Source: Hymenobacter wooponensis (GTDB lineage: Bacteria > Bacteroidota > Bacteroidia > Cytophagales > Hymenobacteraceae). Taken from it: a stretch of 64,000 nt of DNA. Location of the stretch: NCBI RefSeq assembly GCF_004745865.1, contig NZ_SRKZ01000003.1, positions 682,001 through 746,000 of the forward strand, written 5' to 3'. Under the pieces are notes generated by a model. It saw only the letters and a list, made by a program, of their open reading frames with translations, made no database searches and had not been told where the DNA came from. The position numbers and the translations under genes are program-made. Positions 24,801 to 36,404 of this stretch are shown here, one piece after another. Numbering within the stretch: the first letter of the stretch is position 1; each line of letters opens with the position of its first letter.

Positions 24801-26099
24801 TTAAAACTGAATAGTGAAGGCGGTGCGGCCATTTCGCTGGGTTTCAAGGCCAAATTGAAACTCGTGTTGGAGCAGGATGTCGCGGATGAGGGTGAGCCCG
24901 ATGCCCTGCCCATCGCGCTTGGTGCTGAAGAAAGGCGTAAACAGGCGGCGCTGTACATCAGCCGGGATACCGGGCCCGTCGTTCTCGATGACGATCTGAG
25001 CCGGTTGTTGGGTAGTTCGCACCCATACGTTGCCGTTTTCGCCAATGGCTTCCAGGGCGTTTTTGCAGATGTTCAGTAGCGCCTGCTCCAGCTGCAGCGG
25101 GTCCAGATCGATCATAAGCGCCTCTGGGGCCAGCTCCCAGTGCCAGCAAATCTGGCGGCGCTCTACCTGCACGTGCAGCAGACGTTCAGTGGTGCGCAGA
25201 AGCTCGTGCACATCGGTCAGCTGGCGCTGGGGCAACGGCAGGCGCACCAGGGTGGCGAAGTTGGCAATGAAATTGGCCAGGTGTGTATTGCGATTGATGG
25301 ACACATCCAGCGCCTCCGTGAAATCGGGCTGGTCGGAGGCCTGGAGCTGAGGGGCGTAATAGTGGAAGCTCTGCAGGATGGAGTTGATAGCACCGATGGA
25401 GTTGTTGATTTCGTGCGACATCATCCGAATCAGTTTGCCGTAGGCCTGTTTCTCCTGCCGAATAAGGTCCTGGGTTAATTCTTCCAGCACGATAAACTGC
25501 CGCGTGAAGCCACGGTCTACAAACCGGGAGCAATGCGCGCGGTACGTCTGAATACCGGAGAGTTGTACCACCTGTGGCTCCTGCTCCGACAGGTCTGACA
25601 GCGCCGGCCCCCAGTCGCCGGGCAGCTGGTCGGGCCTCTCCCCTAGCAGTTGTTTCATGGACAGGCCTAGCATGTGCTCAGCGGCCGGGTTTACTCCCTC
25701 AATGCGCCCATCGAAGGTGAGCAAGAGCACGCCCGCGGGCGAGGCCTGAATCAGGCTTTCGAGCAGGTAGCTTTTCTCGTGCTGGGTTACGCGCTCCTTG
25801 CGCAGCTCATCAATCATGTGGTTGTACACGTCAATGAGCTGATCCATCTCGCGCTGGCCCACAGGCACAAACTTCATCGAAAAATCCTTGGTCCGAATAG
25901 CCTCCGTGCCTGCTGCTATCAGTTGAAAAGGCCGCACAAATCCTTTATAAAGCCGGATGGTCAGGTAAATGCTCACACCAAGCAGCACCTCCAGGCCTAC
26001 AAAAAGCGGCGCATTCGTCCGCATCACCTGGGCTGCTAGCACAATCAGGACGGCATGGATCAGAATTACGAACAGCAGAAATTGTACGCGTAGGGTCAT
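24801..26099 (-). CDS. NtrB-type sensor histidine kinase
   Basis: A 432-residue membrane kinase. Two N-terminal membrane helices (FLLFVILIHAVLIVLAAQVM and LFVGLEVLLGVSIYLTIRLY) with almost no periplasmic loop suggest that it senses within the membrane or cytoplasm. A HAMP-like linker and a PAS domain (SLIQASPAGVLLLTFDGRIEGVNPAAEHMLGLS) follow. The phosphoacceptor is His229 in RMMSHEINNSIGAI. The ATPase part has the N box (LLNICKNALEAIGENG), DGPGIP, and FFSTKRDGQGIGLTLIRDIL. It lies downstream of the NtrC-type regulator on the same strand and should be its partner. Confidence 0.9.
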   Translation of the reverse strand: MTLRVQFLLFVILIHAVLIVLAAQVMRTNAPLFVGLEVLLGVSIYLTIRLYKGFVRPFQLIAAGTEAIRTKDFSMKFVPVGQREMDQLIDVYNHMIDELRKERVTQHEKSYLLESLIQASPAGVLLLTFDGRIEGVNPAAEHMLGLSMKQLLGERPDQLPGDWGPALSDLSEQEPQVVQLSGIQTYRAHCSRFVDRGFTRQFIVLEELTQDLIRQEKQAYGKLIRMMSHEINNSIGAINSILQSFHYYAPQLQASDQPDFTEALDVSINRNTHLANFIANFATLVRLPLPQRQLTDVHELLRTTERLLHVQVERRQICWHWELAPEALMIDLDPLQLEQALLNICKNALEAIGENGNVWVRTTQQPAQIVIENDGPGIPADVQRRLFTPFFSTKRDGQGIGLTLIRDILLQHEFQFGLETQRNGRTAFTIQF

Positions 26100-26190: not shown

Positions 26191-27573
26191 CTACTCCGCA
26201 TCAAACGGAATAGCGTATTTCTCTAAGCGCCGATAGAGGGCACCGCGGCTGAGGCCTAGGGCCTTGGCTACGCGACTGATGTTGCCGCCGTAGTGCTCCA
26301 AGGTCCGCCGAATCATTTGGGCCTCTAGCTCGTCGAGGGTGATGGTACCCGGTTCGGGCAGCTCGCCGGGCTCGGGTTGCCGGGTGGGTACCTGCTGAAA
26401 CTGAGCCTGGAAATCCTCGGGCCCGAGCTCATCTTTACCACTTACCAGTACGGCGCGCTCCACCAGGTTTTTGAGCTCCCGAATGTTGCCCGGCAAAGGC
26501 TGCTCCTGTAGCCAGTGTTGGGCGCGAGTACCTACTTTCAGGGCTGGGCGATTGTAGGTGGCACGTAGGCCATCTACGAAGTGCTGCACCAGCAACGGAA
26601 TATCCTGGGGCCGCTCGCGCAGGGCGGGCAGGCGCACGGTTATTAGGTTGATGCGGTAGAACAAATCCTCGCGGAAGCGTCCTTGTTGTACCATTTCGGC
26701 CAGGTTGCGGTTGGTGGCGCAAATCACCCGAATATCGAGGCGACGGGGCTTGCTGTCGCCGAGCACCTCATAGGTACGGTCTTGTAGCACGCGCAGCAGT
26801 TTCACCTGGGAGCCCATATCCAGCTCGCCAATTTCATCCAGAAAAATGGTGCCACCGTTTGCTAGCTCAAAGCGGCCGACGCGGTCGGTTTTAGCATCGG
26901 TGAAGGCCCCGCGGCGGTGCCCAAACATCTCGCTCTCAAACAAAGAGGCTGAAATACCGCCCAGGTTCACCTTCACGAAGGGCTGGCGGCGCCGGTGGCT
27001 GTTCTGGTGCACGGCTTCGGCAATCAGCTCCTTGCCCGTCCCCGACTCGCCCTCAATCAGCACGGAGGCATCGGTGGCGGCCACCTGGCCTACGTTGCGC
27101 AGCACCTGCAGTAGGCGAGCATCCTGCCCCACGATGTCCTTGAAATTGTATTGCTTATCGAGCTGTCGGCGCGTGAGGGTGCCGGCCTCGGCTTCTGATT
27201 CCGGCTCGTGCAAGGAGAGAATGGTGCGGATGGTCTGGAGCAGAGCATCGTTGTTCCAGGGCTTGGTCACGAACTCCGCCGCCCCGGCCTTCATGCCCTC
27301 CACAGCCAGTGCAATGGATCCCCAGCCCGTAATTAAGATTACAGGCAGCGCTGGTGCCAGTCGTTTTACCTGGCCTAGCAGTTGCAACCCATCGTGGCCG
27401 CTGGTGTCGAGGGAAAAGTTCATGTCCATCAGCACCAATTGCGGCAGGCTTTCCTGCACCAGGCGCAACGCTTCTTCCGGCGTGGCTACGCCCTTGGTAG
27501 TGTACCCCGCCTGCTTCAGCAGCAGCCCCAGTGAGGTACGCACCGCTATATCGTCGTCAACAATAAGTATCAT
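26191..27573 (-). CDS. Sigma-54-dependent response regulator (NtrC family)
   Basis: A 460-residue regulator. The receiver domain has acceptor Asp50 (LVLMD) and Lys104 (FVTKP). The AAA+ domain has Walker A GESGTGKE (175-182), Walker B TIFLDE (about 242-247), and the sigma-54 contact loop reads GAFTDA (222-227) instead of GAFTGA. The Fis-type helix-turn-helix is GGNISRVAKALGLSRGALYRRLEKY at the C-terminus. It is expected to bind the palindromic sites upstream of the exporter genes and activate sigma-54 RNA polymerase. It lies directly downstream of the permease genes and upstream of its kinase. Confidence 0.93.
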   Translation of the reverse strand: MILIVDDDIAVRTSLGLLLKQAGYTTKGVATPEEALRLVQESLPQLVLMDMNFSLDTSGHDGLQLLGQVKRLAPALPVILITGWGSIALAVEGMKAGAAEFVTKPWNNDALLQTIRTILSLHEPESEAEAGTLTRRQLDKQYNFKDIVGQDARLLQVLRNVGQVAATDASVLIEGESGTGKELIAEAVHQNSHRRRQPFVKVNLGGISASLFESEMFGHRRGAFTDAKTDRVGRFELANGGTIFLDEIGELDMGSQVKLLRVLQDRTYEVLGDSKPRRLDIRVICATNRNLAEMVQQGRFREDLFYRINLITVRLPALRERPQDIPLLVQHFVDGLRATYNRPALKVGTRAQHWLQEQPLPGNIRELKNLVERAVLVSGKDELGPEDFQAQFQQVPTRQPEPGELPEPGTITLDELEAQMIRRTLEHYGGNISRVAKALGLSRGALYRRLEKYAIPFDAE

Positions 27574-27672: not shown

Positions 27673-28866
27673 TTACTCTTCTCGCAGGGAAACTGCCGGC
27701 TGAATAGCTGCCGCAATGCGACTAGGCTGAAACGCACAGATAGCCGTGAGCAAAAAGATGAGTATTGTGGCGAGCAGCATGGCCGTCAGGTAGATAGGGG
27801 TGGCGAAGCCAAATACCCCCAACAGCGGAAACTGCATAGCCAGTACTAATCCCCCCACCACTCCCAAGGTGGTTACTACAAACATTTCTCCCAGAAACTG
27901 GCGGCTAATACCATTGCTGGTGGCTCCCAGCGCCCGGCGCAGCCCAATCTCCGACTTCCGCTGGTTGATGTTGTACCAGAGCACGCCAAACAGGCCTAGG
28001 GCCACGTTAATGATCAAGAACAGGCCTACCAGCCCAAGCGCAATCAGCGGCGTGAGCATGAACTTCATCTTGTCGTGGCGGTTTTCTTCCAGCGTGTTCA
28101 CGTTGGCATCCCAGCCTTTGGTCACTTGCTTGATCTTGCGAACCAGCTGCTGCTCCAGCACGGCGCCGCTGCCGGGCAGTACCCGCACCAGCAGAATAGG
28201 CTGCTCATTGTTGCCAACCCGCGCGGTATCCTGCAGCACCCGCCGATTGAAGATGGCGGGCTCGTTGGCGGCAAAGTCGTTGCCGGAGCGGTAGGCCTCT
28301 ATCACGCCCACAACCTGCCACTGTTCATCGTGCTTGTCGTTCGTCAGCACTTTGCCCACGGCGGCCTCACCACCGAACATATCTTCGGCAAATTTTTGGT
28401 TGATAACAACGGGGTGGTGCGTTGAGGCATCATCGCGGTGGTCGAACCAGCGGCCCGCTACCACTTTTTGGTTTAGCACGCGTACCATGTCGTCGTCGGC
28501 ATCGTACTGCTCAGTCAGTGAGGCTTTTTTGTCTTTGTAGCGGAACTGGTCCGTATTCATATTGCTGAACGAAAACGGCGTGTTGGAGCTGGTCCAGGTG
28601 ACGGCCGCTACGCCGGGGGTGGCTTGCAGCTCCTGCACGAGAAGGCGCAAGGTGGCCTTGCGGTCGGTAGTGTCCTGGCCGGGGTCTACGTCAAATTCCC
28701 ACACGTTATCGGGTGAGAAGCCCATGGGCTGCCGGTAGTTGTAGTAGTTGCTGACTAGCAGCACGCTCACCACAAAGAGGACGAAAAACGACAGGAGAAT
28801 TTCGGCCATGAGCAGAAAGTTGGACCGCTTGCGGTTCCAGATCAGAGTAAACAGATGGCGTATCAT
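27673..28866 (-). CDS. ABC transporter permease (MacB/FtsX type), second subunit
   Basis: About 397 residues from the ATG at 28866 (MIRHLFTLIWNRKRSNFLL); an in-frame ATG at 28896 adds ten residues. Topology is one N-terminal helix (FLLMAEILLSFFVLFVVSVLLVS), a large periplasmic domain of about 220 residues, and three C-terminal helices of the FtsX fold (ALGLVGLFLIINVALGLFGV, GEMFVVTTLGVVGGLVLAMQ, TAMLLATILIFLLTAICAF). The segment RKSEIGLRRALGA is the cytoplasmic coupling element. It pairs with the permease just upstream and the ATPase, as in MacB-like mechanotransmission exporters. Confidence 0.88.
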   Translation of the reverse strand: MIRHLFTLIWNRKRSNFLLMAEILLSFFVLFVVSVLLVSNYYNYRQPMGFSPDNVWEFDVDPGQDTTDRKATLRLLVQELQATPGVAAVTWTSSNTPFSFSNMNTDQFRYKDKKASLTEQYDADDDMVRVLNQKVVAGRWFDHRDDASTHHPVVINQKFAEDMFGGEAAVGKVLTNDKHDEQWQVVGVIEAYRSGNDFAANEPAIFNRRVLQDTARVGNNEQPILLVRVLPGSGAVLEQQLVRKIKQVTKGWDANVNTLEENRHDKMKFMLTPLIALGLVGLFLIINVALGLFGVLWYNINQRKSEIGLRRALGATSNGISRQFLGEMFVVTTLGVVGGLVLAMQFPLLGVFGFATPIYLTAMLLATILIFLLTAICAFQPSRIAAAIQPAVSLREE

Positions 28867-28964
28867 GGTATGGCTGGATTTTCGGGCACAAGGCACCAGG
28901 GAGGCGCAAGTGCAATGAGTTTATTGCAGGAGCTCTGGCTCCGCTACCGTGAGCTTGCGGACGG

Positions 28965-30218
28965 CTACTTACTGCCTCCCTTAAGGGCCTGCACTGGCAT
29001 CAGGCGCGACATTTTGAAGGCCGGATACACTCCCGAAAGCAGCCCGAAGAGTAGGGTTACAAGCAGCGCCCAACCAAAAATTCTCAGGTTCAGCTCGAAG
29101 TGAGAGTAGGCCAGTAGTTGCGCACCGCTAATAAGCTGCAGCGCAACGTAGGCCAGTACCAGCCCCAGCAGGCCCCCAATAGTGGTCAGGAAAATGTTTT
29201 CGACCAGAAACTGCCCAATCAGGGTGCGGCTGGTGGCGCCGAAAGCCTTCCGGACCCCAATTTCGGAGGAGCGCTCCATGATGCGGCTCACGTTAATGTT
29301 TACCAGATTCAGCGCGGGCAGCATCATAAAGAGCAGCGCAATACCTGATAAAATGGAATACAGCAGAGCCGTTCCATCGGAGCTATAATCGGTAAGGGGG
29401 CTCATTATCTGCCGGGAGTAAGAGGCCAGCATCTGGTCGGCGTGTACGTCTAGGTAATCCATGCCCTTAGGATCGGGCAACGGAATCCGCTTAACCATTT
29501 GGTCGAACTCAGCCTGTACGGCGGCTTTCTCAGAGGCAGATTTAGCCAGAATTATGGCCGAATATTCGCCATCGAGCCTTACCTGGTTTAAGTTATTAGG
29601 GCTCGTAGACAGCGGCACCCACACATCGGCGTAAGAAGACAAGCGTATTACGGGCACATCCTCCACTACCCCTATCACACGGTAGGCACTCTGGTTAATC
29701 TCGATGGTACGCCCTACCACTCCTTGCTCAGTGCCGAAATACTTGCGGGCCGTGGACTGGTTGATTACGGCCACGCGAGCCGCCGACTTCATTTCTGAGT
29801 CGCTAAAGGGCTTACCGTCCCGGAAGGTGAAGTCCAGCACCTGCCAGAATACGTGGTCAGTATATTTCAGGTCTAGGTCAATGCGGTTGTTGCCCACGTA
29901 GCTGGGCGTGGCGTGAAACATGGAGTGCACGGCCACTTTTTCTGGGGTTTTGAGGTGGCGCACGTACCGATCAAGCAGGTAGTAGCTGGCCGGCGAATTC
30001 TGGTTGCCACCATTCTTGTACTTGATGTGCAGGAAATTCACGAACAGCATCCGGTTAAGGCGCGTTTCGGGGGCATGGGCACCTACCGCGTGGTCGAACA
30101 TGGCCACCACTACCAGCAGCACCATGAGGGTGAAGGAAATGCCAAACAGGCTGATGAAGGTGAAGAACTTGCGGCGCAGCAAGACTTTCCAGGCAATTTT
30201 GAGGTAGCTAAGCAACAT
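28965..30218 (-). CDS. ABC transporter permease (MacB/FtsX type), first subunit
   Basis: 417 residues from the ATG at 30218 (MLLSYLKIAWKVLLRRKFFTFISLFG); the longer open frame upstream runs out of phase through the sigma-factor gene and is not used. It has one N-terminal helix (LFGISFTLMVLLVVVAMFDHAV), a periplasmic MacB-type domain, and C-terminal helices (ILSGIALLFMMLPALNLVNI, FLTTIGGLLGLVLAYVALQL, WALLVTLLFGLLSGVYPAF), with RSSEIGVRKAFGA as coupling helix. The start overlaps the sigma-factor stop by 11 nt, so the two are translationally coupled, an uncommon arrangement. Confidence 0.88.
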   Translation of the reverse strand: MLLSYLKIAWKVLLRRKFFTFISLFGISFTLMVLLVVVAMFDHAVGAHAPETRLNRMLFVNFLHIKYKNGGNQNSPASYYLLDRYVRHLKTPEKVAVHSMFHATPSYVGNNRIDLDLKYTDHVFWQVLDFTFRDGKPFSDSEMKSAARVAVINQSTARKYFGTEQGVVGRTIEINQSAYRVIGVVEDVPVIRLSSYADVWVPLSTSPNNLNQVRLDGEYSAIILAKSASEKAAVQAEFDQMVKRIPLPDPKGMDYLDVHADQMLASYSRQIMSPLTDYSSDGTALLYSILSGIALLFMMLPALNLVNINVSRIMERSSEIGVRKAFGATSRTLIGQFLVENIFLTTIGGLLGLVLAYVALQLISGAQLLAYSHFELNLRIFGWALLVTLLFGLLSGVYPAFKMSRLMPVQALKGGSK

Positions 30219-30792
30219 GAGCGTGGGCGTAGGAAGTAGAGAAGGAAGAGTGAAGGGCGGCCACCTGCCGCTGCAGCACCGCGCGGGCCTTGCTGAGCTG
30301 CGACTTGCTTGTGCCCTCTGAGATGCCAAGCAGCTCGGCCACTTCGGGATGGGTGTAGCCCTCCAGAGCAAGATTGAACACGGCCCGGTAACCGGCGGGC
30401 AGCTCCTGCACCAGCCGGAGCAAGTCGGCGGCTTGGAGCTCCACATCGGCGCTCGGAAGCTCCGTGGCCAAGTGGCCCGTGTAACAGTCCTCAATGCTGA
30501 GTGTGAGCGACTCGCGGCGGCGAAGGCAGTTTAGGGCTTCGCGCACCATAATGCTGCGTACCCACCCTTCCAGGCTGCCCTTGCCCGCGAACTGGCCTAG
30601 GCACTGAAACACCTTCACGAAGCCGCGGGCTAGGGCATCTTCGGCGTCGAACTGGTGGCGCACATACCGCAGGCAAAGGCCTAGCATCTTGGGGGCAAAG
30701 CGGTGGTAGAGCTGCTCCTGAGCCGCGGCATTACCCTGGTAACAGGCGGCAACCAGTTCAGCATCGGCAAGAGGAAGGGCGAGCGTTTTCAT
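30208..30792 (-). CDS. ECF-type RNA polymerase sigma factor
   Basis: A 194-residue sigma-70 family factor. Region 2 covers about 25-95 (LYHRFAPKMLGLCLRYVRHQFDAEDALARGFVKVFQCLGQF and SLEGWVRSIMVREALNCLRRRE); region 4 covers about 135-185 (LPAGYRAVFNLALEGYTHPEVAELLGISEGTSKSQLSKARAVLQRQ), a normal helix-turn-helix. No anti-sigma gene is adjacent. It sits between the exporter ATPase and permease genes and overlaps the latter. It may couple exporter expression to another regulon; its target promoter is unknown. Confidence 0.9.
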   Translation of the reverse strand: MKTLALPLADAELVAACYQGNAAAQEQLYHRFAPKMLGLCLRYVRHQFDAEDALARGFVKVFQCLGQFAGKGSLEGWVRSIMVREALNCLRRRESLTLSIEDCYTGHLATELPSADVELQAADLLRLVQELPAGYRAVFNLALEGYTHPEVAELLGISEGTSKSQLSKARAVLQRQVAALHSSFSTSYAHAHVA

Positions 30793-30835: not shown

Positions 30836-31579
30836 TTAGCTTACTTGGCTGCCGTCGAAGAAGCGGATGAGGCGCTGCGTTTTGTGCGCCTGCTGCTCGT
30901 CGTGGGTTACCATCACGATGGTGGTGCCCTCCTGCTGATTGAGGCTGAGCAGCAAGTCCATAATTTCCTCGCCCATCACTGAGTCGAGGTTACCGGTGGG
31001 TTCGTCGGCGAGGATGATTTCAGGGCGGCCGGCCAGGGCTCTGGCAATGGCTACCCGCTGGCGCTGCCCGCCAGAAAGCTGGCTGGGGAAGTGGTTGGTG
31101 CGGGCGCTCAGGCCTACTTTGTCGAGGGCAGCATAGGCCCGCTCCCGCCGCTCCTTCCCACCTACCCCCGACCGGTACAGCAGCGGCAGCTCCACATTAT
31201 CGAGCACCGAGAGGTCGTTGATGAGGTGGTAGCTCTGGAAGACGAACCCTATTTTCTGGTTGCGCAGGTAGGCCAGTTCTTTGTCGGAGTAGGACTGCAC
31301 GGGGCGGCCATCCAGCTCAATCACGCCGCTAGTGGGCTCATCAAGCAGACCAATAATGCTGAGCAGCGTAGACTTGCCGCAGCCCGAAGGGCCCATGATG
31401 GATACAAACTCGCCCTTGTTGATGGTCAGGTTTACCCGGTTCAGCGCCACCGTCTCGATGGTTTTGGTCTGGTACACCTTCTCGATGTCCCGGAGTTGAA
31501 TAACCGGCTGGTTGGTAGCCGTCAGCGGGTTGTCATTCGTGAGGGGCCGCGCGGCCGTTTGCGTGAGCATGTTTTCCAT
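30836..31579 (-). CDS. ABC transporter ATP-binding protein (LolD/MacB type)
   Basis: A 247-residue ATPase. Walker A is GPSGCGKST (about 63-71), Q loop [10 protein letters not shown], signature LSGGQRQRV (about 168-176), Walker B IILADEP, then the D loop GNLDS and switch VTHDEQQA. A non-conserved leader of about 25 residues precedes the fold. It should energise the two permeases downstream. First gene of the second exporter transcript; a sigma-54-like promoter and palindromic operator lie upstream at 31663-31779. Confidence 0.93.
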
Positions 31580-31662
31580 GAGCGGAGAGAAGTAGAGTTG
31601 AGGAAGGCTGCGTAAGAGGTTGTCCGGTTTTGGGCACTAGGCCACTATTGCTACAGAGGATA

Positions 31663-31680
31663 AGCCAAGCGCCGTGCCAA
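31663..31680 (-). promoter_or_regulatory. Sigma-54-like -24/-12 promoter for ATPase operon
   Basis: TTGGCACGGCGCTTGGCT on the minus strand. The -24 part TTGGCAC is a perfect sigma-54 match; the -12 part reads TTGG rather than TTGC. The adaptor promoter at 36288-36305 shares 14 of 18 positions, including the same TTGG deviation. The GG of the -24 element lies 67 nt from the operator at 31745. Confidence 0.65.
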
Positions 31681-31744
31681 TCACATAAAGTCTTGTAAAT
31701 CAGTATATTACATTCATTTAGCAAAGTTGTTATTTGTTAAAACA

Positions 31745-31779
31745 TGTCCATTTCTGGACAGAGTGTTCATTCTTGGCAA
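31745..31779 (-). promoter_or_regulatory. Palindromic enhancer-type operator for NtrC-type regulator
   Basis: TGTCCATTTCTGGACA (31745-31760) is an inverted repeat of TGTCCA, followed on the plus strand by GAG and a second degenerate site TGTTCATTCTTGGCAA (31764-31779), 19 bp from the first. The same layout is found at 36370-36404. A weaker match TGTCCGGTTTTGGGCA lies at 31621-31636, between promoter and ATG. Confidence 0.65.
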
Positions 31780-31877
31780 GATGAACTGCAACTGCCGAAC
31801 AGCCTGCGTTTTCCAGTGGAGTTATCGGGCTCTTGGCTAGACAGCCGTTGCTAGCACCAGCTAGGCCTATGGAAAGT

Positions 31878-31913
31878 AAAACCGCCCCGTAGCTTTGGCT
31901 GCGGGGCGGTTTT
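31878..31913 (-). terminator. Hairpin terminator after TolC gene
   Basis: Arms AAAACCGCCCCG (31878-31889) and CGGGGCGGTTTT (31902-31913) pair perfectly; the A-run on the plus strand gives U on the minus strand. It ends the adaptor-hydrolase-TolC transcript 26 nt after the TolC stop and so separates it from the ATPase operon. Confidence 0.75.
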
Positions 31914-31939
31914 TAGGATAAGTGGTAAGGTAGAGTGGC

Positions 31940-33406
31940 CTAGTTGGCCGCTACAATGGGCACTTGGCGCTCAAAGTCATAGAGCGTAAGGGCACGTATG
32001 CGGTAATGCGCCACCCAAGCCGCTCGTAGGGCTAGAATGTAGGAGCGACGGGCCTGATCCTTTTCGTTCGAGGCGATGGTGAGGTCGGTGAGGCTAATGC
32101 GCCCTACTTTGTAGGTGGCCTGGGCAATGTCGTAGCGCTGCTGGGCCAGCGAGTCGGCGCGGGCGGCTAGGTCTAATTGCTGGCTGAGCGTGCTAAGCTG
32201 CGAGGCCTGAACCTGCACGTTTTGCTCGAACACGGCTTCCTCCTGCGCCACATCGGTTTGGGCCTGCTGGCGGGTAAGCTCCGCGGTTTTCACAATGGAT
32301 TTTTGCCGGCCCCAATCTATCAACGGCATTGAGAATGTAAGGCGCACCTGCTGCTGATTTTGCAAGGCCGCGTAGGTGTCCCAGAGGTTGCCCGCCTGGT
32401 TCACGTACCCTAAGTTGGCGGAAAGCGAGGCCTGCAAACCCGTAGTGCCACGCGCCAGCGCTACCTCCCGCTCTGCCAGCAGCAGACGCCGCTGAAAGGC
32501 CAGCACTACGCTTCGGTTCTGCCGGGCCTGGGCTAGCGCCAATTCTGCGGGCACTACCAGGCGCGGGGCCACAGCGGGGATGGTGAGGCGCAGATCGGCG
32601 GCCCGTAGGCCAGTGTAGCTCTGCAGGCTCACGGCCGCATTCTCCGCATCCAGCTGCCCTTGGGCCATAGCTTGGCGGGCGTTGAGCAGGTTCAGCTCCA
32701 GCCGCAGTAAGTCGCTTTGAGAGAGGCGCCCCAGCTGGTAGCGCTCCTTCCCTATCCGCAGCAGTTCCTCGTTGGCTCGCACGTTTTGGCTGGCTACCTC
32801 GGCGTTTACCTGTTGCTGCAGCACATCAAAATACAGCTCCGTGATGCGCTGAGCAATGCCTTCACGCTCCTCCACGTATTGGCGCTGGCTTTCCTGGTAG
32901 CGCAGGGGCTCAATTTGGCGCGCCCACTTCAGGCTATTGAACATCCCGATGGGCTGGGTCAGCCCGAGGGCCACTGGTTGGTTGTTGTAGCGTTTTAGCC
33001 GCCCGTTGAAGTCATCGAAGCGCTGCACCTCGGAGGCCACAAACACCTGCCCACCCGTGAGGCCAATGTTCTGGGTGACGGTCATGGCGAGGTTGGAGTT
33101 GTTGATGCGTACGGCCCGGAAATCAGTGGTACCATCGGGCTGCACTACCGGTGTAACGGCCCGGCTGAAGCCCGGCAACGTGCCCTGCAGGCCTAGCTGA
33201 GGACGGTAGTTGGCCTGGTAGGTTCGCCACTCCCAGTAGCTTTTGTCGCGGGTGGTTTGGGTTTGCTTGGCCACCGCCGACTGGCCTAGGGCCAGGTTGA
33301 TAACTTGCTGCAGCGTCAGGGGCGATGATGAAGGCTGGGTTTGGGCGGCAGCCGGTTGCTGGAGCCATCCTGGCAGCAGAAACAACAGGCACATGAGGGG
33401 CTTCAT
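31940..33406 (-). CDS. TolC-family outer-membrane efflux protein
   Basis: About 488 residues from the ATG at 33406 (signal MKPLMCLLFLLPGWLQQPAAAQ); an in-frame ATG at 33430 is also possible. The first half has LTLQQVINLALGQSAVAKQTQTT and QRITELYFDVLQQQVNAEVASQNVRANEELLRIGKERYQLGRLSQSDLLRLELNLLNARQ, the second half the matching repeat (LDLAARADSLAQQRYDIAQATYKVGRISLTDLTIASNEKDQARRSYI), the two-fold helical hairpin of TolC channels. It would form the outer-membrane duct for the exporter. Confidence 0.9.
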   Translation of the reverse strand: MKPLMCLLFLLPGWLQQPAAAQTQPSSSPLTLQQVINLALGQSAVAKQTQTTRDKSYWEWRTYQANYRPQLGLQGTLPGFSRAVTPVVQPDGTTDFRAVRINNSNLAMTVTQNIGLTGGQVFVASEVQRFDDFNGRLKRYNNQPVALGLTQPIGMFNSLKWARQIEPLRYQESQRQYVEEREGIAQRITELYFDVLQQQVNAEVASQNVRANEELLRIGKERYQLGRLSQSDLLRLELNLLNARQAMAQGQLDAENAAVSLQSYTGLRAADLRLTIPAVAPRLVVPAELALAQARQNRSVVLAFQRRLLLAEREVALARGTTGLQASLSANLGYVNQAGNLWDTYAALQNQQQVRLTFSMPLIDWGRQKSIVKTAELTRQQAQTDVAQEEAVFEQNVQVQASQLSTLSQQLDLAARADSLAQQRYDIAQATYKVGRISLTDLTIASNEKDQARRSYILALRAAWVAHYRIRALTLYDFERQVPIVAAN

Positions 33407-33463
33407 AGCTCGGAAATTTTTATTCAACACTTACCAGAGAGTGGCCTAGCACGCTGGGCGCGC

Positions 33464-34951
33464 TTATTTTAGTTGAGCCCGCGCGGGTAGCTCTAGCTTC
33501 AGAACTTGCTCCATCTCAGTCAGGCGGCTTTGACTGATGTTTTCATTCACCAGCAACACAATGCTCAGGTCCTGCTCGGGGTATAGCACGAAGCGCGTAT
33601 TGAAGCCAATGGACCTGCCATTGTGATAAATGCGCTGTTGGCCGTTGCTGTCCGTGTCAAGCATCCAACCCAGCCCCATGCCCACCGCCGACTCAGGGCT
33701 GCTGGTACGCTGATGAGCCAGGCGTACAGCGGCCTGCTGCTCCTTCAGGTTAGCTGCGGCGTATTTTAGCAGGTCAGCGGCCGTTGAGCTGAGGTTAGGC
33801 CCTCCCCAATAACCAGTGTAGTTGGGGTGCTGCTGGGGTTGCTGGCGGCTATCATAGCCGGTGGCATAGCGCTGGTGTTCAGTGGCCGAAAGCACACGCT
33901 TGGTGTCTGCCATGCCAAAGCGTTTCTGCACATACTTTGTCACGAGCTGCTCGTAGGGCTGTTGGTACACGCGCTCCAGAATCAGTTGGAGCACCAGCAT
34001 GGCCGTACCGTTGTAGCGGTATGTAGTGCCGGGCAGCGTAGCCAATTGAAAAGCGTGCATGTCGTGCAGGAGGCTATCGGCGGAGTACTGATTGTAGTAG
34101 GCAGTTCTTTCCACTAAGTTCAGCGCGTCTAGGCGCTCCTTCTTAGCGGTGCAATACACGCGAGGCACAGCAGGCATGCCGGAGGTATGGTTTGCCAGAT
34201 CAACTACCCGAATCGGTTGGCCCTCGTAGGCCAGGTTCGGGTACTGCCCAGGTAAGTATTGCCGAATATCATCGTTCAGCTTGAGCTTCTTATCCAGCAC
34301 GGCCTGCGCCAATAGCGTCCCCACGAAGGTTTTTGCCACCGAGCCCATGTCATAGAAGGTGTTGGCAGTGGGCAACTGTCCGGAGCCCTTTTCTACTTCC
34401 CCGTAGTTGTAGAAAGCAAGCTTGCCCTGCTGATAAATTCCAATAGACAGGCCAGCCACATCAGGATGCTGCATGTAGAGCGTGGCGGCCCGGTGCACAG
34501 CCGCATCCAGGGAGGTTTGCAGCCGGTTATCGGTCAGTGCCGGAACCGTCCGCGTGTTGGGCTGAGCAATGAAATCCGAAATCGTGTAATCATCAAGGGT
34601 ACCCGGCGTTGACGAAATCAGCGCTACCCGCAAGTTCTGCTTTTCCCCGCGCCACTCAAACTCATGGCGCTTGCCTTGCTCCTTTAGCGTAACTGTGGCC
34701 AGTATGCGGCCCGTTTTGGCCTTCAGGTCCGTCAAGTACTTGGTCATGCTTCCGGCAGGCTCCAACTGCCGCAGTGCCGCGCTACCATAAGCTTCCGATG
34801 CGGCAAAAGCGTTGCGGTTGTATTGGGCAATCAGCGTGTCATTAAACTGTTGGTAAGATGCGAAGCCAGACGCTTTGGCTTGGGCCGTTGCACCGTGTAG
34901 CAAGGAGCCAGATAGAACTACTGCGGCAGTTAAGTTGCGGAGATACAGCAT
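33464..34951 (-). CDS. Serine beta-lactamase-like hydrolase
   Basis: A 495-residue exported protein (signal ending near GATAQA). An N-terminal cap of about 130 residues with beta strands (GRILATVTLKEQGKRHEFEW) precedes a class C beta-lactamase/esterase fold: SVAK (Ser204, Lys207), Tyr313 in TTYRYNG where the usual YxN is altered to YNG, and HNG (443-445) in place of KTG. These enzymes are peptidases, esterases or lactamases. Its place between the adaptor and TolC genes, apparently in one operon, suggests a role linked to the exported substrate, for example trimming it or detoxifying it. Substrate unknown. Confidence 0.85.
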   Translation of the reverse strand: MLYLRNLTAAVVLSGSLLHGATAQAKASGFASYQQFNDTLIAQYNRNAFAASEAYGSAALRQLEPAGSMTKYLTDLKAKTGRILATVTLKEQGKRHEFEWRGEKQNLRVALISSTPGTLDDYTISDFIAQPNTRTVPALTDNRLQTSLDAAVHRAATLYMQHPDVAGLSIGIYQQGKLAFYNYGEVEKGSGQLPTANTFYDMGSVAKTFVGTLLAQAVLDKKLKLNDDIRQYLPGQYPNLAYEGQPIRVVDLANHTSGMPAVPRVYCTAKKERLDALNLVERTAYYNQYSADSLLHDMHAFQLATLPGTTYRYNGTAMLVLQLILERVYQQPYEQLVTKYVQKRFGMADTKRVLSATEHQRYATGYDSRQQPQQHPNYTGYWGGPNLSSTAADLLKYAAANLKEQQAAVRLAHQRTSSPESAVGMGLGWMLDTDSNGQQRIYHNGRSIGFNTRFVLYPEQDLSIVLLVNENISQSRLTEMEQVLKLELPARAQLK

Positions 34952-35004
34952 GATGATTAAGGAAATAGAAGTAGGAAGATGTATGGAGTAAGTGGCTGAC
35001 AGGC

Positions 35005-36252
35005 CTATTCAGAGATGGTGAGTTCGGGCGTCTCCTGGTATTCCTTGGTATCCGAGAGAATGATCTGCTCCCCGGCAGCTAGGCCACTGGTTATCTGCAC
35101 GTAGTCGAAGTTGCTGCTACCAAACTGTACCGTCCGGCGCACGGCCTTCCCTTCCTTCAGCACAAACACGGGCTGCTCTTTGCCCCCCTGGTAGAAAGGC
35201 CCATTTTTCACGCGCACCACGTTGTGTAGGGCTTTGGTCACCACAAATACATCAGCCCGCAGGTTGGAGCGCAGCGCCGGATGGTTGTCCTGGGCCAGCG
35301 CGGCATAAAACGTAACCACGCCTTTCTCCACGGCCGGGCTTACCGTGCTGATGGTTCCGCGTAGATCGGTGCCGTTGATGCGAATCACGACCGGGTCGCC
35401 GAGGTGAAAGGCATCGGCGTAGGTATCGGAAATAGTAGCACGTACCCGGAAATGGCTGAGGTCAGCCACGCGGGCCAATGGGTCGCCGGCTTGTACGGTA
35501 GTGCCCAGGTCGTCTTTTACCCAGGTAAGTACGCCGGGCTGCTGGCTGCTGATGTTGGCCTGGGCCAGCTTGCCGGCTAGCTCCGCAATGCTGCGGTCCT
35601 GAATCTGCATGGTGAAGCCCAACTCCCGAACGTCGGCGGCATTGGCGGCGCGCTGGTTGCGAATCTGCTCGCCCAGGCGCTGCAGCTCAAGCTGCGCAAC
35701 TTTCAGGTTCAACTCAGCCTGCCGCACACTCTCGGAGGTGCCACCACCAATCTTCAGCAGGTATTGCTCATCGCGCAGCGCCGACTGCAGACTCCGCACT
35801 TTCACTTGCTGCACCTGCTCCTGGGAACGAAGGTCGTTGAGGGCTTTTTCGAGCGTGAGCTGGAGCTGGCCGTTTTTATTGCGGTTCTGCTGCTGCTCGT
35901 CCTGCAGCTTGGCTAGGGCCGTATTGGTTAGCTCTTTATCCAGCTCCAGAATAGTTTGGCCCGGCTGCACTTTGCTACCTAACGCTACGGCCACCCGCCG
36001 AATAGTGCTTTGAATTGGACTGGTAATTACCGCCTCGTGAGCCGGAATAATTACGCCGGCAGCCGTGAGGGAAGCTTCTACATCGCCTTGTTCAACGGTA
36101 GCCGTCAGAATGCTGCTGCGCTCTAGGCCAGGTTGGAGCACGGTACGGAAGGCTAACAGGCCTACAACAACTAGAATAATGGCTCCCGCCCCCAACAACC
36201 AACGGCGGCGTTGGCGACTGACAAGGGTGGCGTTAGGTAGTGCTCTGTCCAT
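35005..36252 (-). CDS. HlyD/MacA-type periplasmic adaptor
   Basis: A 415-residue membrane-fusion protein with an N-terminal anchor (RRWLLGAGAIILVVVGLLAF). ASLTAAGVIIPAHEAVITSPIQ opens the barrel and lipoyl half; a long coiled coil follows (LTNTALAKLQDEQQQNRNKNGQLQLTLEKALNDLRSQEQV to LKVAQLELQRLGEQIRNQRAAN); then the second lipoyl half LAQANISSQQPGVLTWVKDDLGTTVQAGDPLARVAD and a C-terminal barrel ending in VQITSGLAAGEQIILSD. It bridges the permeases and TolC. First gene of the first exporter transcript, with a sigma-54-like promoter upstream. Confidence 0.9.
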   Translation of the reverse strand: MDRALPNATLVSRQRRRWLLGAGAIILVVVGLLAFRTVLQPGLERSSILTATVEQGDVEASLTAAGVIIPAHEAVITSPIQSTIRRVAVALGSKVQPGQTILELDKELTNTALAKLQDEQQQNRNKNGQLQLTLEKALNDLRSQEQVQQVKVRSLQSALRDEQYLLKIGGGTSESVRQAELNLKVAQLELQRLGEQIRNQRAANAADVRELGFTMQIQDRSIAELAGKLAQANISSQQPGVLTWVKDDLGTTVQAGDPLARVADLSHFRVRATISDTYADAFHLGDPVVIRINGTDLRGTISTVSPAVEKGVVTFYAALAQDNHPALRSNLRADVFVVTKALHNVVRVKNGPFYQGGKEQPVFVLKEGKAVRRTVQFGSSNFDYVQITSGLAAGEQIILSDTKEYQETPELTISE

Positions 36253-36287
36253 TTTCGTACAGGATGAATAGGGTTTCCTGTACAGTC

Positions 36288-36305
36288 AGCCAAGCAGCAT
36301 GCCAC
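36288..36305 (-). promoter_or_regulatory. Sigma-54-like -24/-12 promoter for adaptor operon
   Basis: GTGGCATGCTGCTTGGCT on the minus strand, with TGGCA at -24 and TTGG at -12, 36 nt before the adaptor ATG. The -24 GG is 67 nt from the operator at 36370, exactly the spacing seen at the ATPase promoter. Confidence 0.6.
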
Positions 36306-36369
36306 AATTATAAAATCCTTTATATCAGCAAATTAACCAACATACACTCAAATAGTGTTTTGATAAATA

Positions 36370-36404
36370 TGTCCATTAATGGACAGGCTGTTCGAAAATA
36401 AGAA
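36370..36404 (-). promoter_or_regulatory. Palindromic enhancer-type operator for NtrC-type regulator
   Basis: TGTCCATTAATGGACA (36370-36385) is a perfect 16-bp palindrome; GGC and TGTTC follow (TGTTC at 36389-36393), as at 31745-31779 where GAG and TGTTC occupy the same offsets. It is the second copy of the exporter operator. Confidence 0.65.

Follow-up and report, generated by a model that had tools for sequence, protein, structure and literature searches.

The 64,000-nucleotide (nt) window analysed here, positions 682,001 to 746,000 of contig NZ_SRKZ01000003.1 of Hymenobacter wooponensis, carries a MacAB-TolC-like exporter cluster in which two gene groups are preceded by the same arrangement of operators and a sigma-54-like promoter. 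We consider it quite probable that both halves of this exporter are driven by one sigma-54 enhancer-promoter module present in two copies, with positive feedback through the NtrC-type activator and with a downstream operator dyad that may perhaps act as a governor-like brake. The initial annotation of the locus had likewise proposed one sigma-54-like module used twice, on both exporter halves, with an NtrC-type activator encoded in the second operon. This part of its interpretation stands, whereas its suggestion that the -12 sequence TTGG is a variant of the whole lineage does not. In the literature listings searched we found no publication dealing with this locus or with sigma-54 of Hymenobacter.

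A duplicated module and its conservation

Each copy consists of a strong operator dyad (O1), a weaker tandem dyad (O2), an IHF-like site, a -24/-12 promoter element and a third, degenerate dyad (O3) beyond the predicted transcript start. The operators and promoters had been recognized in the initial annotation, which missed O2, the IHF-like site and O3; its outer limits, 31621 and 36404, nevertheless fall on the ATPase-side O3 and the adaptor-side O2. The parts, their spacing and their conservation can be read directly from the sequence (window positions; counts refer to the orthologous loci described below):

31764..31779, minus strand: O2 of the ATPase promoter, TTGCCAAGAATGAACA, a degenerate dyad in tandem with O1 and 19 bp upstream of it; contains the TGTTC of the annotated block
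31745..31760, minus strand: O1 of the ATPase promoter, perfect dyad TGTCCAGAAATGGACA (exact match), the enhancer
31698..31710, minus strand: IHF-like site of the ATPase promoter, TAATATACTGATT, between enhancer and promoter (relaxed consensus)
31663..31679, minus strand: -24/-12 element of the ATPase operon, TGGCAC-N5-TTGGCT, TGGCACGGCGCTTGGCT; TTGG in 57 of 57; start predicted from the geometry near 31653
31621..31636, minus strand: O3 of the ATPase promoter, TGCCCAAAACCGGACA, third and degenerate dyad, around +18 to +33 and exactly 124 bp from O1
36389..36404, minus strand: O2 of the adaptor promoter, TTCTTATTTTCGAACA, a weak tandem dyad that matches 6 of 12 letters when judged by eye; its statistic is taken over orthologues
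36370..36385, minus strand: O1 of the adaptor promoter, perfect dyad TGTCCATTAATGGACA (exact match)
36323..36335, minus strand: IHF-like site of the adaptor promoter, TAATTTGCTGATA (statistic over orthologues)
36288..36304, minus strand: -24/-12 element of the adaptor operon, TGGCAT-N5-TTGGCT, TGGCATGCTGCTTGGCT; 83 TTGG and 2 TTGA of 85; start predicted from the geometry near 36278
36246..36261, minus strand: O3 of the adaptor promoter, TGTACGAAAATGGACA; overlaps the start codon of the adaptor gene; 85 of 85 leaders have GGACA to within 1 nt

The module reads on the minus strand. Both operator blocks sit, letter for letter, where they had been annotated: on the plus strand, TGTCCATTTCTGGACA at 31745-31760 is followed by GAG and TGTTC, and TGTCCATTAATGGACA at 36370-36385 by GGC and TGTTC. 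The claimed distance of 67 from the operator edge to the first G of the -24 GG is also correct for both copies (31745-31678 and 36370-36303, that is, 66 intervening bases). A genome search of the kind the annotation had proposed finds TGTCCA-N4-TGGACA exactly twice in 6.01 Mb, both times here, and the reversed pattern not at all. A composite pattern, defined as the palindrome followed after 64-67 nt by TGGCAYN5TTGS, occurs in this genome at these two places only and is present in 88 of 204 genomes of the family, with no reversed match in any of the 204. The signal within the window alone is modest, with four operator matches at no more than 2 mismatches against 1.66 expected, a number that 11 of 100 shuffles reach.

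We compared orthologous loci across the family, labelling the genus of the window g1, a neighbouring genus g6, and other genera g2, g4 and g5. A regulator orthologue was detected in 109 of 120 g1 genomes (by best E-value, with the split counted by hand). Loci of 80 of these 109 were compared together with those of all 8 g6 genomes, and the scored g1/g6 set, window included, comprised 89 loci. A further 19 regulator-bearing loci came from g2, g4 and g5, out of 32 orthologues seen in 42 sampled g2-g5 genomes; a twentieth stretch (L243), which lacks the regulator, was left out. We dropped one ATPase row (L127) as a false template match, which leaves 57 rather than 58 ATPase promoters, and we left out the rows of L114 (contig end), L076 and L082 (adaptor absent from the stretch) and L090 (truncated adaptor). 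The g1 and g2-g5 loci were picked via the regulator, so that linkage to it is there by construction; the g6 loci were picked via the operator, and the regulator is present in 8 of 8.

Operator and spacing, whose loss at orthologous loci the initial annotation had named as a way for its proposal to fail, are kept in Hymenobacter and in the neighbouring genus. The adaptor promoter is found in all 85 readable g1/g6 loci, in 83 of them exactly 52 nt ahead of the ATG, and the ATPase promoter is found in 57, absent in 31 and unreadable in one. O1, with at least 9 of its 12 letters, lies 65-67 nt before the -24 GG at 83 of the 85 adaptor promoters and at all 57 ATPase promoters. The intervening spacer is only 42-47% identical in mean pairwise comparison (47% for the ATPase promoter), compared with 77-82% for O1 and the promoter. 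Over the orthologues, O2 has a mean score of 6.9 out of 12 at offset 19, while other offsets from 14 to 25 reach at most 3.3. The relaxed IHF consensus is found in 63 of 132 spacers, with 57 matches at one and the same offset (mean 3.4 and maximum 11 over 200 shuffles). Adaptor matches among named records belong to Hymenobacter in 57 of 58 cases, at 63-91% identity; the promoter is present at 55 of the 57 named loci examined, with O1 at 66-67 nt in 54, counts that overlap with the genome set and are not independent of it.

The upstream dyads lie near -100 with helical phasing. The distance between O1 and the promoter is 54 nt in g4 (6 of 6) and at one g2 locus, 56 nt at four g2 loci and 66 nt in g5 (8 of 8). 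The spacing thus appears to shift by about one helical turn rather than by half a turn, as expected for looping enhancers; sigma-54 enhancers tolerate insertions or deletions of 10-11 bp and should be sensitive to those of 5-6 bp, according to the accessible text of PMC4740811.

In g2, g4 and g5 the module is found only before the adaptor. On a quick regulator tree, which has many weak branches and places three g1 rows within the g6 clade, the distribution of the second promoter needs 4 changes, which we read as probably one gain at the base of g1 and g6 and three losses. The TolC and ATPase matches are no more than 205 bp apart in 30 of the 31 loci without the second promoter, which fits a module that was copied so that the operon could split.

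A third copy, O3 included, is present in 3 of 8 g6 genomes (L207, L208 and L209). Downstream of it lies the gene of a TonB-dependent-receptor-like outer-membrane barrel (OMP_b-brl_3), immediately adjacent in L208 and beyond a short gene in L207 and L209; judged by its letters, this short gene may be MarR-like. The regulon described in the initial annotation as closed is therefore closed in this genome, where the pattern occurs at two places only, but not in these three g6 genomes. Beyond the family, a looser form of the composite pattern was found in 6 of 395 genomes of the phylum, four of the same genus plus G391 and G384. We take the G391 site as chance, there being no regulator within 20 kb on one side and no exporter-like module. 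In the distant Bacteroidota genome G384 (L220, L224; contig C4), TGGCAC-N5-TTGC is preceded at 62-63 nt by a TGTCCG-N4-CGGACA dyad at two sites, and an activator with a GSFTDA loop is encoded beside one of these.

The downstream dyad O3

O3 is most clearly marked by its right half. GGACA stands at +124 from O1, to within 1 nt, in all leaders counted, 85 of 85 for the adaptor and 57 of 57 for the ATPase. In motif, position and conservation O3 would suit a governor-type site, and it may lower output at high levels of phosphorylated regulator.

O3 could instead be a relic or a leader signal, either because the ATPase promoter was copied together with the adaptor promoter and its start region (AAAATGGACA), or because the element works at the level of the leader RNA. 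The adaptor O3 extends over the start codon and the Met-Asp codons and could be kept there by coding constraint. The left half of O3 is weak, the g4 and g5 leaders have no GGACA at this place, and the adaptor leader contains a partial inverted repeat. Nevertheless, GGACA is kept in 57 of 57 non-coding ATPase leaders and its distance from the promoter is constant, although the ATG lies at an estimated and variable distance of 69 to 142 nt and the spacer is only 47% identical. Furthermore, most ATPase leaders retain the four fixed letters of TGnnCA (T, G, C and A) in the left half, and CGGACA recurs exactly at +124 before the three outer-membrane loci of g6 (3 of 3). We therefore regard the relic or leader reading as possible but doubtful, and suspect that O3 serves as an operator.

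The partial inverted repeat lies at 36256-36285 (CTGTACAGG ... CCTGTACG) and straddles the predicted start of the adaptor transcript. Across 82 distinct leaders about 72% of the cells are paired in its best stretch of 5 pairs, with some two-sided changes.

The -12 letter and the activator loop

The exporter promoters are non-consensus -24/-12 elements. The -24 part reads TGGCAC or TGGCAT in 131 of 143 rows (a total that includes the false L127 row), with GG kept. The -12 part, for which the consensus is TTGC, reads TTGG in 140, TTGA in 2 and TTGC in none of 142, and the GG-N10-G(G/A) geometry is preserved. The template used for promoter scoring is TTGG-shaped and leans to TTGG; a separate scan that allowed TTGC also gave only TTGG. 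The genome has a single copy of rpoN, with an intact RpoN box (ARRTVAKYRE).

The initial annotation took TTGG for the ordinary look of sigma-54 promoters in this lineage. In its favour, all orthologous exporter promoters read in g1, g2, g4, g5 and g6 have TTGG or TTGA (18 TTGG and 1 TTGA of 19 in g2, g4 and g5), and the similar module of G384 has TTGC, so that the purine is confined to some lineages. The same genus, however, keeps a TTGC or TTGT element before a gene for a small exported DUF4890-like protein (L265-L287; C13:842853 in the genome of the window), whose Pfam match of 29.3 bits lies just below the cut-off and which may be 'Spy-like'. A conserved, canonical-looking candidate sigma-54 promoter, for example TGGCACCGGAGTTGCA, lies 75-103 nt upstream of this gene; in the genome of the window it belongs to the small number of TTGC sites that are intergenic. 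Among its 30 best loci from 61 genomes, TGGCAY-N5-TTGC was found in 16, TTGT in 6, no site in 8 and TTGG in none; 7 of the 8 loci without a site are less than 48% identical and are probably paralogues. A lineage-wide TTGG is thus unlikely. What remains of the idea is narrower: a purine at -12 seems to be characteristic of the exporter modules of this family, the similar module in the distant G384 having TTGC.

Genome-wide counts show no enrichment of either form over reversed controls (28 against 36 for TGGCAYN5TTGG and 20 against 26 for the TTGC form), and thus the test rests on conserved promoters. Three intergenic sites lie outside the two modules (L154, L159 and L164), and the L164 promoter was examined for conservation. 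At L154 (C18:297861), a TTGG-type site, TGGCATAATACTTGG, is found 68 nt before an open frame of 280 amino acids. Loci of paralogous activators, 20 in all, were also inspected: of the 12 from other genera, nine have a promoter before exporter genes (6 TTGG, 3 TTGA) and three have none, and the 3 from the same genus and 5 from the genome of the window gave no usable promoter.

It is also conceivable that the -12 element should be read one base further on, as TGGC (GG-N11-GC), instead of as TTGG in the normal register. The base after TTGG is C in 136 of 142 g1/g6 promoters, 8 of 8 in g5, 1 of 5 in g2 and 7 of 9 paralogous exporter promoters. This C is not kept in g4 (TTGGAT in 5, TTGGGT in 1), at four of the five g2 loci (TTGGAA or TTGAAA) or at two paralogues (TTGAAA), yet the -12 position stays G or A throughout. 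The shifted register is highly improbable, and we continue to read TTGG in the normal one.

The regulator itself matches PF00072, PF00158 and PF02954, all above cut-off (receiver, AAA+ sigma-54 interaction domain and Fis-type helix-turn-helix), in agreement with the earlier claim that the second operon encodes an NtrC-type activator with a Fis-type helix-turn-helix. The composite pattern occurs somewhere in the genome in 79 of the 109 g1 genomes with the regulator and in 1 of the 11 without (Fisher p 6e-5, uncorrected for kinship). The recognition helix reads SRG where the operators are GGACA (68 of 69 read in g1, with 11 unread; 5 in g2, 6 in g4 and 8 in g6) and SRA in g5 (8 of 8), whose O1 sites are for the most part TGTTCA-N4-TGAACA. 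SRA is likewise found in a paralogous exporter system (L247, L252) that has TGTTCA operators.

The activator loop of the regulator is GAFTDA rather than GAFTGA, and D occupies position 5 in all 106 orthologous loops read (L233 was unread and L243 lacks the regulator). Ten strong activators were found in this genome; two have GAFTDA, and the others GAFTGA, GSFTGA, GSYTGA or GSFTSA. No TGGCA-N6-TTG site was found within the 16 kb around the second GAFTDA-type activator (L260, C19:145219).

Several points weigh against our interpretation. At -12 the promoters have G instead of the consensus C, and the loop departs from GAFTGA. The scoring template favours the form it found, and the named loci add no independent sample. 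One genome (G062; C2:3985600 and 3989139, L036) has both modules and an adaptor of 69% identity with no regulator orthologue detected. The helix code is loose: in SRG species O2 has a GAACA end, TGTTC forms one half of several g1 O1 sites, the operator of one g5 locus is mixed and one g1 helix reads SRP. The coding constraint on the adaptor O3 and the g4 and g5 leaders, discussed above, belong here as well.

The loop in particular could mean that another regulator binds the operators, or that a GAFTDA regulator works without sigma-54. In the accessible text of PMC12316311, GAFTGA is treated as invariant and only GAFTGA enhancer-binding proteins are kept, with a consensus of TGGCACN5-7TTGCT. 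VfmH of Dickeya, which has GAFTDA, brought down no RpoN in a pull-down, and the part of PMC10714721 available to us calls the effect of the G-to-D change unknown, leaving this possibility open for that protein. In the genomes studied here, however, -24/-12 elements are conserved at a fixed distance from the enhancer, regulator and operator co-occur, and helix and operator partly co-vary. GAFTDA is also listed among the variants expected to keep activity in what we could consult of PMC4641369. Another regulator, or activity independent of sigma-54, is therefore very unlikely in our view, and the GAFTDA regulator of the second operon is the probable activator of both promoters.

Within the family the -12 letter follows the activators, the exporter regulators having D in all loops read. 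The GAFTGA-type loop adjoins DNA near -12, as stated in the consulted part of PMC7057263, and thus a pairing of loop and -12 letter is physically plausible. We propose a pairing of GAFTDA with a purine at -12 from few independent cases, and as a general pairing it is weakened by the GSFTDA activator that stands beside TTGC in G384. In a bolder form, the GAFTDA activators of this family and their -12-purine promoters would be a separate sigma-54 specificity class, in which the Asp of the L1 loop, located beside sigma-54 region I and the DNA near -12, matches the purine and insulates the exporter regulons from GAFTGA activators of the same cell, with O3 as a built-in brake at each promoter. We consider this decidedly unlikely because of the same G384 activator beside TTGC sites.

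Exporter operons, proposed mechanism and significance

The gene order given in the initial annotation is borne out by Pfam, namely HlyD adaptor, PF00144 hydrolase and OEP/TolC in one group and ATPase, extracytoplasmic function (ECF) sigma factor, two MacB/FtsX permeases, NtrC-type regulator and kinase in the other. The features are as follows:

35005..36252, minus strand: HlyD/MacA-type adaptor (Pfam)
33464..34951, minus strand: PF00144 serine hydrolase (Pfam), a passenger gene, in 6 of 89 loci
31940..33430, minus strand: TolC-like outer-membrane efflux protein (Pfam)
31878..31913, minus strand: strong hairpin ending in four U, possible terminator, between TolC and the ATPase enhancer (-26.5 kcal/mol, z -6.7)
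30836..31579, minus strand: ABC ATPase (Pfam)
30208..30792, minus strand: ECF-type sigma factor gene inside the ATPase operon; match in 33 of 89 loci
28965..30218, minus strand: MacB_PCD/FtsX permease 1 (Pfam); start at a read ATG, the listed open frame being longer
27673..28896, minus strand: MacB_PCD/FtsX permease 2 (Pfam); open frame, true start may be later
26191..27573, minus strand: NtrC-type response regulator with receiver, AAA+ domain with GAFTDA loop, and Fis-type helix-turn-helix with recognition helix SRGALYRRL
24801..26099, minus strand: histidine kinase with PAS and HATPase_c, HAMP just below cut-off (Pfam)

Two transcripts, as annotated, are likely. The strong hairpin between TolC and the ATPase gene supports them, while a consensus terminator scan lists this site on the plus strand only. 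The same scan finds a minus-strand terminator-like site at 36463-36428, upstream of the adaptor enhancer. Elsewhere the separation of TolC and ATPase is as large as about 5.8 kb. The ECF sigma gene overlaps the permease start, and a cascade from sigma-54 to the ECF sigma factor is possible.

With an adaptor, an ATPase, MacB_PCD/FtsX permeases and TolC all present, the cluster resembles MacAB-TolC in its HlyD/MacA adaptor, ABC ATPase, permease type and TolC. It differs in that the ATPase and the two permeases are separate genes, in being divided between two operons, and in having a regulator, a kinase and, in some species, an ECF sigma gene inside the operon.

Sigma-54 dependence, the identity of the binding protein, DNA looping, braking at O3 and the nature of the signal are what we infer in the following scenario. 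The kinase would sense envelope or export stress and phosphorylate the NtrC-type regulator. Regulator dimers would bind the strong O1, centred near -100, with help from the weak tandem O2. A bend at the IHF-like site would place the hexamer on the RpoN polymerase bound at TGGCAY-N5-TTGG, whereupon both promoters would be opened by ATP hydrolysis. The regulator gene lies in the second operon, so the circuit would have positive feedback. The weak O3, at +18 to +33 and thus at the leading edge of the polymerase, would be filled only at high levels of phosphorylated regulator and would slow promoter escape, acting as a governor-like brake. The initial annotation called the regulon self-tuning; this may be so, and O3 is what would make tuning possible.

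The nearest precedent for a brake at O3 is glnAp2 of Escherichia coli, where tandem high-affinity NtrC enhancer sites are accompanied by weak 'governor' sites (Atkinson et al. 2002, as described in the accessible text of PMC3870243). Common to both systems are an NtrC-type activator, enhancer dyads in tandem, additional weak copies of the motif with a proposed role in capping the output, and a regulator gene within the operon that it controls. As far as that text goes, the weak glnAp2 sites are 'further downstream' of the enhancer, whereas O3 lies past the predicted start at a fixed 124 bp from O1. Moreover, the module described here stands on two promoters, and on up to three in g6.

Sigma-54 control has been predicted for FtsX/ABC antimicrobial-peptide-type permeases in Bacteroidia, the same gene class and phylum, in PMC12316311. 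As described in its accessible part, that survey works at the level of COGs with a GAFTGA-only filter, and therefore GAFTDA activators fall outside it; we found no operators, spacing, O2 or O3 in that part. VfmH of Dickeya dadantii is, like the regulator here, a Fis-family response regulator with GAFTDA. It made no contact with RpoN according to the consulted part of PMC10714721, while in the family studied here GAFTDA regulators stand beside conserved -24/-12 elements.

On sequence grounds the module is real, conserved and well defined, and of note are the downstream dyad at its fixed place and the purine at -12 in the exporter promoters of this family. If the proposed pairing is true, activator loop and -12 position would not be constants but would, at least in this family, be matched to each other. 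This could help to explain why such regulons may escape a survey that requires GAFTGA and a TTGC-type consensus, and it bears on the question raised in the available part of PMC10714721 of whether G-to-D in GAFTGA abolishes sigma-54 contact. It could also help to explain how parallel NtrC-type systems in one cell avoid cross-talk. The invariant downstream dyad O3 would, in turn, offer a compact design in which positive feedback is combined with a ceiling.

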